IMG/VR virus record: IMGVR_UViG_3300045968_000110
Location: 1 to 36,764 of that record
Origin: a virus
Reading direction: 5' to 3' (one strand)
Length of the DNA: 36,764 nucleotides
Below the pieces are notes generated by a model. That model worked only from the letters and a program-made list of their open reading frames with translations, did no database searches and was not told where the DNA came from. Shown one piece after another: positions 18,960 through 30,029 of this stretch (its first letter is position 1; every line of letters begins with the position of its first letter). The position numbers and the translations under genes are program-made.

Positions 18960-19099
18960 GGCGACCCCAGGAATGCGCCCACCGCCGCCCAGGCGAGCAA
19001 GGACGGCAGAACGATGGCCGCCAGCGCGCCGCCGTATCGGATCAGCCGCTCGCGCCGGTGGCGCCGCGCCCGCCACTCCGGGCAGGTGAGCACCTTCAC
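18956..19099 (-). CDS. small single-span membrane protein
   Basis: 47 residues; GTG at 19099 overlaps the previous stop and the TGA end overlaps the next GTG. Basic N-terminus (RARRHRRERLIRYGG) followed by a hydrophobic span (ALAAIVLPSLLAWAAVGAFL). The positive-inside pattern predicts an N-in membrane protein. The role is unknown; superinfection exclusion or lysis accessory are possible. Coding support comes from the overlap at both ends. Confidence 0.55.
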   Translation of the reverse strand: MKVLTCPEWRARRHRRERLIRYGGALAAIVLPSLLAWAAVGAFLGSP

Positions 19100-19380
19100 C
19101 CGCGCACGGCCCGGCGCACGGGATCCGCAAACATGCGCAGCGTCGCCTCCAACGCCCGCCGGGCGCGCTTGCCCTCCTCGATGGCCCTGTCCGCCCGCCG
19201 GATCAGGCTGCGCGTGGTAGCCGTCTCGCCCAGCAGTTCGTGGACGCGGTCGAAGATGTCAGGGCCGGACGGGCGCGGCTTGCGCGCACCCCCGCCGCCG
19301 CGGATAACCCGCAGGGGCGCGGCTGCCAAGATTCGAACTTGGTACCCCCGGCTTCGTAGGGCGATTCCCGTTCCTCCCAT
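19096..19380 (-). CDS. helical hypothetical protein at the attachment site
   Basis: 94 residues from the ATG at 19380, which has GGAGG 8 bases upstream; a longer frame starts at 19500. The N-terminal 25 residues are encoded by the tRNA-derived attP sequence (SRGYQVRILAAAP) and are unlikely to be a folded domain. From residue 45 a helical section (FDRVHELLGETATTRSL, then RRADRAIEEGKRARRAL) looks genuine. If so, integration would separate the coding region from its own 5' end and promoter. A shorter TTG start at 19329 is possible. Confidence 0.45.
   Translation of the reverse strand: MGGTGIALRSRGYQVRILAAAPLRVIRGGGGARKPRPSGPDIFDRVHELLGETATTRSLIRRADRAIEEGKRARRALEATLRMFADPVRRAVRG
19316..19359 (-). 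other. attP: 3' half of a tRNA-Arg(ACG) gene
   Basis: On the minus strand, an anticodon loop CTACGAA (19359-19353, anticodon ACG), anticodon-stem 3' half GCCGG, a variable loop, a perfect T arm CCAAG-TTCGAAT-CTTGG (19342-19326) and a 3' acceptor strand CAGCCGC lie in the right order and spacing. The 5' half of a tRNA is absent: bases upstream of the anticodon loop do not pair. This is what a phage attP carries when its integrase targets a host tRNA gene, and the integrase gene is 180 bases away. Confidence 0.8.
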
Positions 19381-19522
19381 GATGGATGCCTCCCGTCTTG
19401 CGATCGGCGGCTTTGGCCCCCCCTCCTCGAGCGAGCGCACGTTGCGAGCATGGCTGCGCCGCGAAGAAGAGGCCGAGACCGCCGAATTGCTGGTTTCCAT
19501 GCTCGCATCTCAACCAGTACAA

Positions 19523-19542: not shown

Positions 19543-20478
19543 CTATTTCGTAACGGCGGGCGCGAAATTCGGACGCGCGTTGTCAAACGGGTTCGCAACG
19601 TCGATCGCATCGGGCGTCCACCGCAGGTAGTGCGTGCGGATGATCCTCGACGTGCGGGGGTCGCTTTTGTGCCCGAGCCAGAGCGCGGCGAACTCGGCGC
19701 CCTGCTCCGGGCTCATGCCCTTCTTCACCGCGAGCTCGAAGATGTACGAGACGCACGAGCGGCGAAGGCCGAGCGGCGTGACGTGGGGGACACCGGCCCG
19801 GGCGCAGGTTCGGATCATCCCCTTGGACGGGTACGCCCACCACCGCGGCGCCACCCGGTGCGCCGGCTCCGTGATGCCGTTCGCCGTGAACCAGTCCGCC
19901 AGCAGCTCGCCGAACTCGTCCGGCAGCGGCAGCCAGCGGGCGATGGCCTTCGACTTGGTGTTGTACCTGCGCCACGTCCGGCGCTCCAGGTCAACGTCGC
20001 CCCGCCGCCACCGCCGGACGTCGCTGTCGTGCATGCCCGTCCAGAACAGGATGTCGACGCCGATCCGCTGGTCCGGGTCGAACGCCAGCCGCCCCTGGCG
20101 GTAGTCCTTGTACGTCCACACGTCCTGCCCCGGCTTGCTGTCGCCCTTGATCTCTGGCCACCAGTGCGGCCGCTCCTTGCAGAACCCGCGGCGCCAGGCG
20201 TCCTCGAGCGCGAGCCGCAGCAGCTTGAGGCGCTTCTTCACCGTCTCCCGCATCAGGCCCCGAGCCGTCTCCTGGTCGATGTAGCCGTTGACGTCCTTGA
20301 ACCCGATGTCCGCGACCTGCACGTCCCCGAAGAACGCCACGAGCCAGCGCCGCTGCTCGTGGTACATCGCCCGCGTCTCCGTGCTGATGTTGCCGCGGTG
20401 GTCGATCGTCCACGTGATCGCCTCGTAAAGACGCCCTTCCTGGTACACCGGCAATTCGAGCTGCATCGTCGCCCCCAT
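19543..20478 (-). CDS. int: tyrosine recombinase (integrase), divergent active site
   Basis: 311 residues, ATG at 20478 (or 20466). Catalyses site-specific recombination between attP and a host tRNA gene. N-terminal SAM-like arm and core-binding region (residues 25-105), then a catalytic domain. Box I reads FWTGMHDSDVRRW (145-157) with His150 where Arg is expected; box II TPLGLRRSC (234-242) keeps Arg but has Leu for the first His; LGHKSDPRT (268-276) and the probable nucleophile Tyr284 (RTHYLRW) are present. Gene and attP are adjacent, as usual. The substitutions may define a subfamily rather than inactivate it. Confidence 0.85.
   Translation of the reverse strand: MGATMQLELPVYQEGRLYEAITWTIDHRGNISTETRAMYHEQRRWLVAFFGDVQVADIGFKDVNGYIDQETARGLMRETVKKRLKLLRLALEDAWRRGFCKERPHWWPEIKGDSKPGQDVWTYKDYRQGRLAFDPDQRIGVDILFWTGMHDSDVRRWRRGDVDLERRTWRRYNTKSKAIARWLPLPDEFGELLADWFTANGITEPAHRVAPRWWAYPSKGMIRTCARAGVPHVTPLGLRRSCVSYIFELAVKKGMSPEQGAEFAALWLGHKSDPRTSRIIRTHYLRWTPDAIDVANPFDNARPNFAPAVTK
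19546..19554 (+). repeat. TTTCGTAAC direct repeat, left copy
   Basis: TTTCGTAAC at the integrase stop; the same 9 bases occur at 20582-20590 behind the other end of the gene, with TTACGAA at 20490 and the inverted pair TTACGA-TT-TCGTAA at 20600-20613. Candidate arm-type binding sites for integrase or a directionality factor. Confidence 0.5.
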
Positions 20479-20581
20479 TCGAAACGAGCTTACGAACCTG
20501 CCATGACAGAACTGGTCGTACCTATGCGGTCTGTTTGTTCAGCGAAACCCCGGGGACCGCGTCAACGATGTGGCGCGAAGG

Positions 20582-20613
20582 TTTCGTAACTATCTAACCT
20601 TACGATTTCGTAA
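20582..20613 (+). repeat. TTTCGTAAC repeat plus TTACGATTTCGTAA inverted repeat
   Basis: Second TTTCGTAAC (20582-20590) and an inverted repeat of TTACGA with a 2-base centre (20600-20613). They overlap the end of the 67-residue gene and lie just upstream of the integrase. Together with TTACGAA at 20490-20496 they flank the region 20479-20589 that holds the integrase control sequences. Confidence 0.5.
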
Positions 20614-21476: not shown

Positions 21477-21625
21477 GACTGCTCCTCATCGTCGTCCGAC
21501 CCGTTGATCTCCAGCCAGTCCTCGATGAAGTCCTGGAGGTCGCCCGCCAGCTCCTTCTGCGCCTGGTCGCCCTTGACGAATACCTTCGCCAGATCCAGGC
21601 ACCGCTCGTCGTAAAGCCGGCTCAC
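21473..21625 (-). CDS. small acidic hypothetical protein
   Basis: 50 residues from the GTG at 21625, overlapping the upstream stop and the next start. Two helices (CLDLAKVFVKGDQAQKELAG, then DLQDFIEDWLEIN) and an acidic tail. Placed between annealase and nuclease, it may be a coupling or regulatory factor; no family recognised. Confidence 0.5.
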   Translation of the reverse strand: MSRLYDERCLDLAKVFVKGDQAQKELAGDLQDFIEDWLEINGSDDDEEQS

Positions 21626-22650
21626 GCCGCCGCCTCCGGCAGCACGAGCCCCTTCGCCCTCTCCTCCGCGATCAGCGCCTCGTAGTGCTTCGTGCCGTGG
21701 GCCATGACCAGCGTCAGCGCCGCGTCGGCCTGCATCTGCGTCAGCGCCTCCACCGGGTTGTCTGCCGCCGCGAACAGGCGCCCGAACAGCTGCCCGAACC
21801 ACACCCGCACGTACGCCTTCGTCCATTTCCGCTTCCGGATGTGGCTGACGATCGCCTCCTTCTGTTCGGCGGTCGCCGCTTCGCCGGTGTCAGGCACCGA
21901 GGGCGCGGACGGTGACGGCGATGCTTCCGCGCCAACCGCATCGGCACTCGGCGGAGACGGCGATGCCGGCGGTGTACGCGACGCTTCGGAGGACGGCGGA
22001 GAAGACGGCGCCGCAGGCGGGGCAACACCACCCGCGCCCGCCATCAGGTCGTGCGGCTGGCTCACCCGGTTCTTGAGCTTCCACTTCGTCTTCTTGTCGC
22101 CCGTCCGCTTGTCCGTCTGCTCGTAGCTCGTCGCGTACTGGCTTTTCCATTTCTCCCTCCAGGTTGCGTCCCACAGCTCCGTCGCCACGCCCAGGTCCTT
22201 GCAGCAGCGCGACAGGGCGTCCGTCTTCGCCCCCTCGACGCACGAGGCGTAGCTCATGTTGGGGTTGTTGTCGCGGTAGAAGCACTCGCCCACCGCCTCC
22301 GCCACGAAGCGCCCCAGGCAGAACAGGGCGCCGTGGTACACGACGATGTTGTTGTCCTTCATGTACCGGGCGGGCGAGCGCGGGGCTATGGCCCAGCCGC
22401 CGGCGCCGAAGGCGCGCGTGAGGATGCGCCGGTAGGCCACGCCCGGCAGGAACACGATCCCGTCCGGTTTGATCTCGACGTCGTGCGGGTTGACCTTCTC
22501 CGCCAGCACCCGCCGCGCCTCCTCCGAGAACGGCTCGGTCGCCATGCCGTCGAAACCGCGGGCGTACTGCGCCGCGGGCCCTGGAGCCTGGGACATTGTC
22601 CCACCCTCCGGTGGGGTCATCGCGGTCGTTTCTGCGGCTGCTGCGGTCAT
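21622..22650 (-). CDS. Mgm101/Rad52-like single-strand annealing protein
   Basis: 342 residues, ATG at 22650 with an AAAGGA ribosome-binding site. Residues about 52-175 match the Mgm101 core: VNPHDVEIKPDGIVFLPGVAY, RILTRAFGAGGWAIAPRS, then a EGAKTDALSRCCKDLGVATE block and WDATWREKW. Members anneal complementary single strands in phage recombination. The middle (200-260) is a Ser/Pro/Ala linker, and a second helical domain follows (KEAIVSHIRKRKWTKAYVRV). The N-terminal residues 12-24 are encoded by repeat R2 (GGTMSQAP). Confidence 0.85.
   Translation of the reverse strand: MTAAAAETTAMTPPEGGTMSQAPGPAAQYARGFDGMATEPFSEEARRVLAEKVNPHDVEIKPDGIVFLPGVAYRRILTRAFGAGGWAIAPRSPARYMKDNNIVVYHGALFCLGRFVAEAVGECFYRDNNPNMSYASCVEGAKTDALSRCCKDLGVATELWDATWREKWKSQYATSYEQTDKRTGDKKTKWKLKNRVSQPHDLMAGAGGVAPPAAPSSPPSSEASRTPPASPSPPSADAVGAEASPSPSAPSVPDTGEAATAEQKEAIVSHIRKRKWTKAYVRVWFGQLFGRLFAAADNPVEALTQMQADAALTLVMAHGTKHYEALIAEERAKGLVLPEAAA
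22583..22606 (-). repeat. repeat R2, copy 4
   Basis: 24-bp element with core TGGGACATTGTCCCA in the same orientation as copies 1 and 3. It lies 44 bases inside the annealing-protein gene and is translated as GGTMSQAP. A start at the inner ATG of the repeat, or at MATEPFSEE a little further on, would place the element upstream of the gene. Confidence 0.85.
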
Positions 22651-26593: not shown

Positions 26594-28296
26594 CAGCGAC
26601 CCTCGTCCGCGGCCTTGACAGCGTCGGCCAGCGACGCCCCGCCCTTCATCCCCTGCGCCACGCGCGCCGCGTAGTCGAGGGACGCGGCGCGCGCGCCTAC
26701 TCCGCTGGACACGTCCGGCGCCACGCCGCGGAACTTCTTCGCCAGCGCGTAATCCGCCGCTCGGATGCCCTCGCCTCCCAGCCTGATCGCCTCCGGCGCC
26801 ACCAGGCCCAGGACCATCTCCTTGACGCCGCCGTGCGCGAGGCCGGCGCCCGCCAGCGCGGCGCGGCCGATGTGTTCGCCGATCGACCGGCGGCCGGCCG
26901 CTCCCATGGCCGCGCGCTCCTCCAGCGCCAGCTCCGCCGGGATCAGGACCGACACGTCCTGGTTGAGCTTCCGTAGCCGCTTGATGTCGACTCCGTCGGC
27001 GTTGGCGGCGGCGCGCTCGATCGCGTCGGAGTACACCGCCCAGATCTCCTTGCTGACCTGCCTCTTCAGGAGCGGGTCCACCGCCGCGTTGCCGTCGAAT
27101 GCCGCGGTCCGCGCGCGCCCCTTGAGCCCGCGCAGCGTGTCCGCCGACAGCTTGCCGAAGTTTCCGTACTCGCTCAGGAACTGCGCGCGCGCCTTGCGCA
27201 GCACGTTCAGTGCGTCGAGGTGCCCGTCCTTGAGCAGCCGTCCGGCGATCTTGTCGAAGCTGACGGCGATTTCGGTCGGCGTCACCACGCGCCCGGCCTT
27301 CTCCATGGCCGCGAACATGTCGTCCAACTCGCCGTTGATCTGCTCGATCTTCCCCGTCACCGCCTTGCCGACCTTGTCCGGCGACGAGCCCGCCTTGACC
27401 GATACCAGCTTCTCGAGCGCCGGATCCTCCGCCAGCACCACCGACAGCCGATCGCCGTCTTCTCCCGCCCGCTCCTGCACCTTCAGCGTTGTCGACTTCT
27501 TCGCGTTCTGCTCGCCCGTCGTGATGTCCTTCGCGCGGCGCTTCGCCACGCGCGCCGGCGCCGACTCGACCAGCTTGGACGCGAGGCTCGCCCCGCCGCC
27601 TGTCGCGGCCGACAGCGCGATACCAGCCGGATCCGTAGCCGCCTCGCGAGCCGCGCCCGCGCGATCGCCGGACGCCTCCGCCGACAGGGCCGCGGTAACC
27701 GGCGCCGTGGCTGCGTACCCGCCTGCGCCACGGGCCGCGCCGAGCGCCACGCGCGCCGGCGCGCTGGTCGCCTTGAGCCCGGCCGTTCCGAGCTTTATGA
27801 GCTGGCCGCCGCCCTTCGCGATCGTGGACGCCACGCCGGGCGTGAACGCTCCGGTGATCCCGCCGAACTCGCGGAAGCCCGGCGCATCCACCATGTCCTG
27901 GTCCGCCGTCGCTGCGAGCTGCACGTCAGGAGCGTCACCGGCCGCGCGCCCGATGCGGTCAGCCAGGCGCTGCCCGTACCCGAGCGTGACCATGTTGTCC
28001 ATGCCCCGCAGGAACTCGCGCCGCCGCGCCGGGTTCGTGATGGTGTCGATCGGGTGCCGCCACGTCTCCGCCGCCGCGCCGGCTCCGGCGGCGATCGTGC
28101 GGCCGAGCGCCGCGAACCCTCGCCCCAGGCGATCGAACACGCCCGGCGGCGGTTCGGCTGCGGGCGGCGCGTCTCCGCCCGTCAGGCCATGCGCCTGCGC
28201 CTCCTCCGGCGTCAGCGTATCCGGCAACTCCGGCAGCAACCCGAGCTTGCGCGCCTGCTCCGGCGTCAGCGTGTCCGGCATGTCGATGCCGGCCAT
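26593..28296 (-). CDS. large internal virion (ejection) protein, probable
   Basis: 567 residues; ATG at 28296 (TGATG) is preferred over the longer frame. The N-terminus carries two copies of a PDTLTPEQA/PDTLTPEEA unit about 20 residues apart, followed by GFAALGRTIAAGAGAAAE and Ala/Gly-rich amphipathic stretches (120-200) able to insert in membranes; from 280 on it is helical with KIEQINGELDDMFAAMEKAG and FDKIAGRLLKDGHLDALNVL. Short-tailed phages eject such proteins to build a DNA channel. I infer this role from composition and context. Confidence 0.55.
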   Translation of the reverse strand: MAGIDMPDTLTPEQARKLGLLPELPDTLTPEEAQAHGLTGGDAPPAAEPPPGVFDRLGRGFAALGRTIAAGAGAAAETWRHPIDTITNPARRREFLRGMDNMVTLGYGQRLADRIGRAAGDAPDVQLAATADQDMVDAPGFREFGGITGAFTPGVASTIAKGGGQLIKLGTAGLKATSAPARVALGAARGAGGYAATAPVTAALSAEASGDRAGAAREAATDPAGIALSAATGGGASLASKLVESAPARVAKRRAKDITTGEQNAKKSTTLKVQERAGEDGDRLSVVLAEDPALEKLVSVKAGSSPDKVGKAVTGKIEQINGELDDMFAAMEKAGRVVTPTEIAVSFDKIAGRLLKDGHLDALNVLRKARAQFLSEYGNFGKLSADTLRGLKGRARTAAFDGNAAVDPLLKRQVSKEIWAVYSDAIERAAANADGVDIKRLRKLNQDVSVLIPAELALEERAAMGAAGRRSIGEHIGRAALAGAGLAHGGVKEMVLGLVAPEAIRLGGEGIRAADYALAKKFRGVAPDVSSGVGARAASLDYAARVAQGMKGGASLADAVKAADEGR

Positions 28297-30029
28297 CACT
28301 TCACCTTGTGGTACTTGCCGTCCGCTCCAAGCTCGTACTTGATGCCGCCGGGAGCGGTGATCGTGCTGCCCGCGGCGGCGGTGCGGCGCTGGCGCATCCC
28401 TGGCACGTAGGTGTCGAGGTACACCGGGATCTCCTTGGCGACCCACGGGGTGTTTTCCGCAACGCCCTGGAGCCGGGTTTCGATCTGGCCGCCGATGCGG
28501 TCGAGCTCAGCCAGGGCGCCCTTCGCCAGCTGGCGGATGGCGTCGCCGACGATCTTGGCCTTCGCCGGGGCCATGTTGCCGTTCGTCCAGTCGTTGATGA
28601 ACTGGTCGACGGCCGCGCCCGACAGCTTGCCGCCCACGCGCTTCCAAAACAGATCCATGTCGCTGTCGCTGATGACGCCCGTACCGCCCTGGGCCATCTT
28701 CACGAACTGTCCGGCGCCCGCCGCCGCCAGCGCCGCGTTGGTGGTCGCGCCGGAGAGCGTGCGTGCCATCTGGTTGTACTTCGCGTTCTGGGCGGCGGAC
28801 TCCTTGTACCCGGTGTTCTGGATCACCTTCTGCACGATGCCGTCGACACGGGCCTGGTCCTGCAGCGACTTGGACTCCTTCTTCTCCTCGCGCGCCAGCT
28901 TCTTGTCTGCGAGCCGATCGTCGAACTCGCGCTTTCGCTCGCCCAGGTTCGCGCGCGCGAGCGCCAGCGTCGCCGCCGCCTGCTGCCGCTGGTCGCGGTG
29001 CCCCTCCTCGCGGTTGTGGATGTCGCCTTCGTGCGCGGCGGCCTTCTGGAGCGCGTCCACCAGCACGACGTTGCCCTTGACCTGTGCCTCCGGCACGCCC
29101 GCCCGGCGCAGCTGCTCGTCCGCCTCGCGGGCGATGGCGCGGTACCGGGCCGCGAAGTCCGCGTCCAGGTCGTTCATCGCCGCCCGGTGCGCCTCCTGCG
29201 CGTCCTTGGCGCCGTGGCGGGCCATGAGGACGTTGTCCCCGGCCTGGGCCAGCCTCGCCCGCTTCGCGTCGTACTCGCGCTTCATGCGGTCGTTGATGCC
29301 CTTCAGACCCTCGTTCTGGTTACTAGGCGCGTGCCCGGCCTGGATGGCGGCGACGTTGCCCAGGCCAGCCGCGAAGCCGCCGATGAGGATGGCGGCGATC
29401 TCGCGCCCGGTGTGCGGGCGATCCCACTTGAACCCCTCGACGTCCCGGGCCGCCGCGAGCCGGGCGTTCACGGCCTCGTTGATCTGCGTCGCCCGCGCGT
29501 CCCGCGCCAGCTTGGCGCGCGCGATCTCCGCCTTCTTCTCGCGCGCCTCGACCGCGGCAACCTCGGCCTCCTTCTGCCCGCGCATCGCCCCCACGGCCGC
29601 GGCGTGCTGCGCCAGCGCCGTCTGCCGCTTCGTCAGCTCGCCGTGGTGGTCGACCAGGGAGCGCTGGTACGCGGCGTTCAGCGCCACGTCCTTCTGCGGG
29701 TCGCCCGTGAACGCGGGCGGCGGCGGCGGCGGGCCGAGCTCCGGGAACTGCGGCGCGGGCGGATACGCGCTGGTAGCAGGGGCTGGAGTCGAACCAGCTG
29801 CGACAGGCGTATGAGGCCCATCTGCCGCCACGGCTCCCTGCTGTGGAACTTCCGGCTCGGCAACCAGCGGCTCCGAGGTGACGTCCTCATCCGTCAGCGC
29901 GTCCGCGTCCAGGTCGAGCGCGGCGTCGATGGCAACGTCCGGCGTGGTGGTGCCGCCGGCCAGGTAGTCCCGCGCCTGCTGGACGTCGCTGTCCTCGTCC
30001 TCGTCGTCCGCGACGAACCCGACGCCCAT
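28296..30029 (-). CDS. coiled-coil internal virion protein, probable
   Basis: 577 residues, ATG start. Residues 1-110 are acidic and Pro-rich, including a PPPPPP run. Residues 120-190 and 245-360 form long coiled coils (AEVAAVEAREKKAEIARAKL, then ARANLGERKREFDDRLADKK). Between them is a hydrophobic segment (REIAAILIGGFAAGLGNVAA, about 205-224), a possible membrane span. The C-terminal part (about 390-540) is globular and ends in a short basic tail. A likely ejected core protein of a podovirus-like virion. No enzyme motif seen. Confidence 0.55.
   Translation of the reverse strand: MGVGFVADDEDEDSDVQQARDYLAGGTTTPDVAIDAALDLDADALTDEDVTSEPLVAEPEVPQQGAVAADGPHTPVAAGSTPAPATSAYPPAPQFPELGPPPPPPAFTGDPQKDVALNAAYQRSLVDHHGELTKRQTALAQHAAAVGAMRGQKEAEVAAVEAREKKAEIARAKLARDARATQINEAVNARLAAARDVEGFKWDRPHTGREIAAILIGGFAAGLGNVAAIQAGHAPSNQNEGLKGINDRMKREYDAKRARLAQAGDNVLMARHGAKDAQEAHRAAMNDLDADFAARYRAIAREADEQLRRAGVPEAQVKGNVVLVDALQKAAAHEGDIHNREEGHRDQRQQAAATLALARANLGERKREFDDRLADKKLAREEKKESKSLQDQARVDGIVQKVIQNTGYKESAAQNAKYNQMARTLSGATTNAALAAAGAGQFVKMAQGGTGVISDSDMDLFWKRVGGKLSGAAVDQFINDWTNGNMAPAKAKIVGDAIRQLAKGALAELDRIGGQIETRLQGVAENTPWVAKEIPVYLDTYVPGMRQRRTAAAGSTITAPGGIKYELGADGKYHKVK

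Follow-up and report, generated by a model that had tools for sequence, protein, structure and literature searches.

Tyrosine-integrase islands and prophages can use anticodon-centred (A-type) tDNA attachment sites, which were reportedly described by Williams in 2002. The Islander survey counts a 3' tDNA fragment in 3760 of 3919 islands and an anticodon-centred site in 2083 islands (PMC4383910). An attP that restores a tRNA carries the 3' part of that tRNA from the anticodon loop on (PMC4383910, PMC10865867). In the mycobacteriophages BPs and Weirdo19ES, attB lies in tRNA-Arg for both (PMC7194413), the tyrosine integrase is short and lacks an arm-binding domain, and the attP core is embedded in an open reading frame adjacent to the integrase gene; this frame encodes the repressor and loses its 3' end on integration. 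A further arrangement is the tRNA-dependent lysogeny of Fionnbharth and others, in which a tyrosine integrase, a tRNA target and a tRNA-like gene in the phage occur together with a core of about 10 bp, the phage tRNA being of the same isotype as the target (PMC10865867).

In the viral DNA analysed here (the window, 36,764 nucleotides), a candidate attP core that corresponds to the 3' part of a tRNA-Arg(ACG) gene lies at 19316-19359 on the minus strand. It comprises the anticodon loop CTACGAA with the anticodon ACG (19353-19359), the 3' strand of the anticodon stem, GCCGG (19348-19352), a 5-nt variable loop, GGGTA (19343-19347), a T arm CCAAG TTCGAAT CTTGG with five Watson-Crick pairs and the loop TTCGAAT (19326-19342), the acceptor 3' strand CAGCCGC (19319-19325) and the discriminator G (G73, 19318). 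From 19359 to 19318 these elements follow one another in the correct order and with normal tRNA spacing; the discriminator is followed by CC but no A, so CCA is not encoded. The ACG anticodon loop, 3' anticodon stem, perfect T arm and acceptor 3' strand that an earlier note had reported are thus all readable on the minus strand. That note had also stated that the 5' half of the tRNA is missing, and we agree, because neither ARAGORN nor cmscan gives a tRNA at the site: the sole ARAGORN call in the window is a tRNA-Met elsewhere, and cmscan (Rfam) of 101 or 701 bases around the half tRNA returned no tRNA match. When the 44 nt alone were compared with RF00005, they aligned to positions 31-71 of the 71-position model as a tRNA truncated at its 5' end; the score was 20.0 bits, below the gathering score of 29 bits, and the E value of 0.012 is generous, because the 44-nt cut was picked once the site was known. 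Folding of 60 nt around the half tRNA was no better than that of shuffles (z 0.89), which is unsurprising for half a tRNA.

A pattern scan for perfect T arms (five Watson-Crick pairs and a TTCRANY loop) found two in the window, one in the half tRNA and the other in the tRNA-Met at 29771-29842, against a mean of 0.077 per sequence in 300 first-order Markov sequences of window length. When an in-register anticodon loop was required as well, the expectation fell to 0.0067 per sequence. The pattern was defined after the site was known, but the half tRNA stands far above chance nonetheless, and its place beside an integrase gene adds to the evidence.

The isotype was assessed over the 42 nt from the anticodon loop to the discriminator, compared ungapped and in register. 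Matches of the 44 nt by BLAST included one tRNA of a ten-tRNA array on a Variovorax plasmid and one in KVP40-like Vibrio phages, both of which ARAGORN identified as tRNA-Arg(ACG); in the phage collection 34 records matched, and Vibrio phage phi-pp2 was the one taken for comparison. Identity reached 32/42 with the Variovorax gene and 30/42 with the phi-pp2 gene, scores biased upward because both genes were found by BLAST with the half tRNA, and 27/42 with E. coli argQ, which was not found in that way. The nine other tRNAs of the Variovorax array were identical at 17-23 of the 42 positions, and the window's own tRNA-Met at 20/42; a Parabacteroides tRNA-Pro, chosen through BLAST likeness, reached 31/42, owed to its T arm and not to the anticodon loop. 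The third plasmid match, from Sphingobium, holds no tRNA; it falls within or beside an annotated hypothetical gene and was omitted from the alignment. All three tRNA-Arg(ACG) genes compared align with the half tRNA in register and without gaps, which supports the isotype proposed in the earlier note.

The gene for a 311-aa tyrosine integrase (19543-20478, minus strand) ends 183 bases from the half tRNA on the same strand, which supports the earlier note's placing of the half tRNA beside an integrase gene; no other integrase gene was recognised among the proteins searched. Its product matched the PHROG integrase family phrog_1 with an E value of 2.1e-21, and the Pfam matches (PF00589, E 0.0053; PF13102, E 0.01) were both below their cut-offs. 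The third-position G+C of the gene is 0.94, as strong as expected for a gene under selection. The match to the core-binding domain is weak and begins at residue 29, so that the roughly 28 residues ahead of it leave hardly any room for a full arm-binding domain. Catalytic positions were assigned by aligning the protein with two plasmid-borne integrases. In this alignment, the first catalytic Arg position is taken by His150 (TGMH versus TGMR and TGIR) and the first His position of the RKHRH pentad by Leu236 (TPLGLRR versus TPHQLRH and TPHDLRH); R239 and H270 are kept, Y284 is probably the nucleophile, and the catalytic lysine has no assigned position. With two usual catalytic residues apparently replaced, the activity of the integrase is not assured. 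However, His150 and Leu236 need not mean an inactive enzyme, because the tyrosine recombinases described in PMC8138268 include subgroups in which the first Arg is moved or missing or the first His is replaced. A PDB sequence search with the integrase gave only chance-level matches, and a structure model built without an alignment was set aside (mean pLDDT 36.7).

Below the site lie genes for a ParB-like protein, a helicase, a methylase and the large terminase, and above it the integrase gene is followed by those for Mgm101-like and tail-fibre-like proteins. Since phage genes flank the site on both sides, it would be an internal attP and not the end of an integrated prophage. Together with its place beside a tyrosine integrase gene, this setting makes an ordinary attP with its core in the anticodon loop the best reading of the half tRNA. 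Its form, a terminal tRNA fragment from the anticodon loop onward with a tyrosine integrase gene (phrog_1; Pfam below cut-offs) adjoining it, is that of A-type sites, and it supports the attP reading in that a tRNA-restoring attP has the same form (PMC4383910, PMC10865867). Unlike known A-type sites, the present one is read from the phage sequence, and its integrase lacks, by alignment, two usual catalytic residues. We consider it very likely that 19316-19359 (minus strand) is an attP core, at which the integrase would recombine the phage with a host tRNA-Arg(ACG) gene and restore the tRNA.

By this attP reading, the integrase encoded at 19543-20478 would recombine the core with the same stretch in the host tRNA-Arg(ACG) gene. 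By analogy with A-type sites (PMC4383910), strand exchange would probably take place in the anticodon loop (19353-19359). The 5' half of the host tRNA would then be joined to the phage-borne 3' part to restore a working tRNA, and the host's own 3' part would be moved to the distant end of the prophage, on the integrase side. In the direction of the tRNA, the integrase gene precedes the core; in the prophage it would stand at that distant end and border the displaced host fragment. The restored tRNA gene would be followed, in the same orientation, by the genes from 19315 downwards. A tRNA-type attP is a common kind of feature, and the arrangement is an ordinary one. The half tRNA indicates that this otherwise orphan phage is probably temperate, and it gives a concrete attB to seek; a genome with a matching tRNA-Arg(ACG) could name the host.

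Three other explanations of the half tRNA were weighed against this reading. The fragment could be what is left of a whole phage tRNA-Arg(ACG) gene that lost its 5' half, with no relation to integration. Phages do carry tRNA-Arg(ACG) genes, phi-pp2 being an example, and the same phage has a weak tRNA-Met-like gene (29.0 bits, just at the gathering score), but the fragment starts at the anticodon loop and is undamaged as far as the discriminator, as A-type attP fragments usually are, and it adjoins the one integrase gene recognised among the proteins searched. Moreover, the fragment lacks CCA, yet both the tRNA-Met of this phage and the tRNA-Arg of phi-pp2 encode it. Decay seems an improbable origin.

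Far less credible still is a short-core site of the tRNA-dependent kind, at which integration would disrupt the host tRNA and a phage tRNA would take its place. Such phages exist and use tyrosine integrases (PMC10865867), and the phage analysed here does have a tRNA-like gene; however, a whole 3' part of a tRNA is present, the core measures about 42 bp and not about 10 bp, and the phage tRNA is Met(CAT), of another isotype than Arg. That the half tRNA is a mere chance resemblance inside coding sequence would fit with the stretch belonging to an open frame and with the empty full-length tRNA searches, but a window should hold only about 0.007 such half tRNAs by chance, with the proximity of the integrase gene not yet counted, and we regard this explanation as hardly tenable.

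The candidate core also overlaps a possible gene. An open frame on the minus strand (19096-19500) runs uninterrupted through the half tRNA, and a plausible 94-aa gene (19096-19380) would have its first codons running through it. The best start is the ATG at 19380, which has a GGAGG 8 nt upstream (19389-19393), although this support is suggestive only, since GGAGG stands 4-11 nt before 18 of the 310 ATGs on the minus strand; an alternative start, TTG at 19329, lies within the T arm. Third-position G+C gives this frame a strong coding signal between about 19095 and 19305, which disappears at the site and above it. Searches with the longer, 134-aa form of the product across the site gave no family match, and no repressor was recognised at the half tRNA. 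The earlier note had placed the site in the 5' part of a predicted gene; the open frame and the ATG with its GGAGG agree with this, but the product is not recognised and the coding signal fades at about the site, so the claim stands only in part.

It is possible that integration splits the 94-aa gene across the site, as the earlier note had predicted; in that case, it would remove the ATG at 19380, its ribosome-binding site and any promoter above. BPs and Weirdo19ES resemble the present case in the tRNA-Arg target, the short tyrosine integrase and the core inside an open frame adjoining the integrase gene. They differ in that the 3' end of the repressor gene is removed there: here the small gene has no family match and meets the site at its 5' end, so that integration would remove its start. 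An integration-dependent immunity of the BPs type is therefore not what this 94-aa frame displays. The site might also act as a gene switch. As long as the phage is free, the 94-aa gene would start at ATG 19380, upstream of the core, and integration would swap its promoter, ribosome-binding site and first seven codons for the 5' half of the host tRNA, leaving the gene off or expressed from the tRNA promoter as a 77-aa form that begins at TTG 19329. We hold such a switch to be unlikely; if the gene across the site is real, it would add one more case of integration itself altering a gene.

The earlier note had also suggested that the site could name the host, which it did not. Neither a strict pattern (33 fixed bases) nor a looser one (26 fixed bases) matched any host tRNA with the 3' part of the half tRNA in genome_contigs, a collection of 84,980 species, in scans where a single difference at a fixed position suffices to hide the host. 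These empty scans do not refute an attP, because the host may stand outside the collection or be missed through one mismatch, and because a phage core can differ from the host site, as in Boilgate, with five differences in 43 bp (PMC10865867).

Related site patterns and an integrase scan found no prophage or relative carrying the site in viral_contigs; the one viral match to the T arm and acceptor pattern was a whole tRNA-Thr in an unrelated phage. A helicase scan of the viral contigs gave 13 loci (34-56% identical) and a terminase scan one locus (66% identical). The integrase had no match when the window's proteins were searched by tblastn (E 1e-4) against the first 13 loci, nor in four of these records that were searched with it. 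Scans of viral_contigs with the integrase and the Mgm101-like protein gave no relatives, and neither the integrase nor the terminase matched any of 50,697 phage records. With the closest viral contigs sharing only single proteins with it (56-66% identity), the phage is an orphan. The Mgm101-like protein (21622-22650, minus strand) matches PF06420 strongly (E 1.5e-49), a recombinase family named for mitochondrial genome maintenance, and had no match in the phage collection, the plasmid collection or viral_contigs.

The tRNA-Met(CAT)-like gene (29771-29842, minus strand), called by ARAGORN, has a weak D arm and an encoded CCA, and its RF00005 score equals the cut-off. It sits within an open frame (28296-30029), in which third-position G+C is 0.47 across the tRNA-Met stretch but 0.93 and 1.0 in the parts flanking it. 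Either the tRNA is nested within a coding frame, or the open frame links two genes.

The motif TTTCGTAA occurs four times in the window against 0.12 expected, three of them around the integrase gene; its positions are 10145, 19546, 20582 and 20606 on the plus strand and 20490 on the minus strand. We rejected these repeats as arm-type sites, because two of them stand more than 1.2 kb away from the core and because the integrase could hardly accommodate an arm-binding domain. Upstream of the integrase gene (20578-20613, plus strand), the copies at 20582 and 20606 stand close together, the second within the palindrome TTACGATTTCGTAA (20600-20613), and these TTTCGTAA sites and the palindrome are possible operators.
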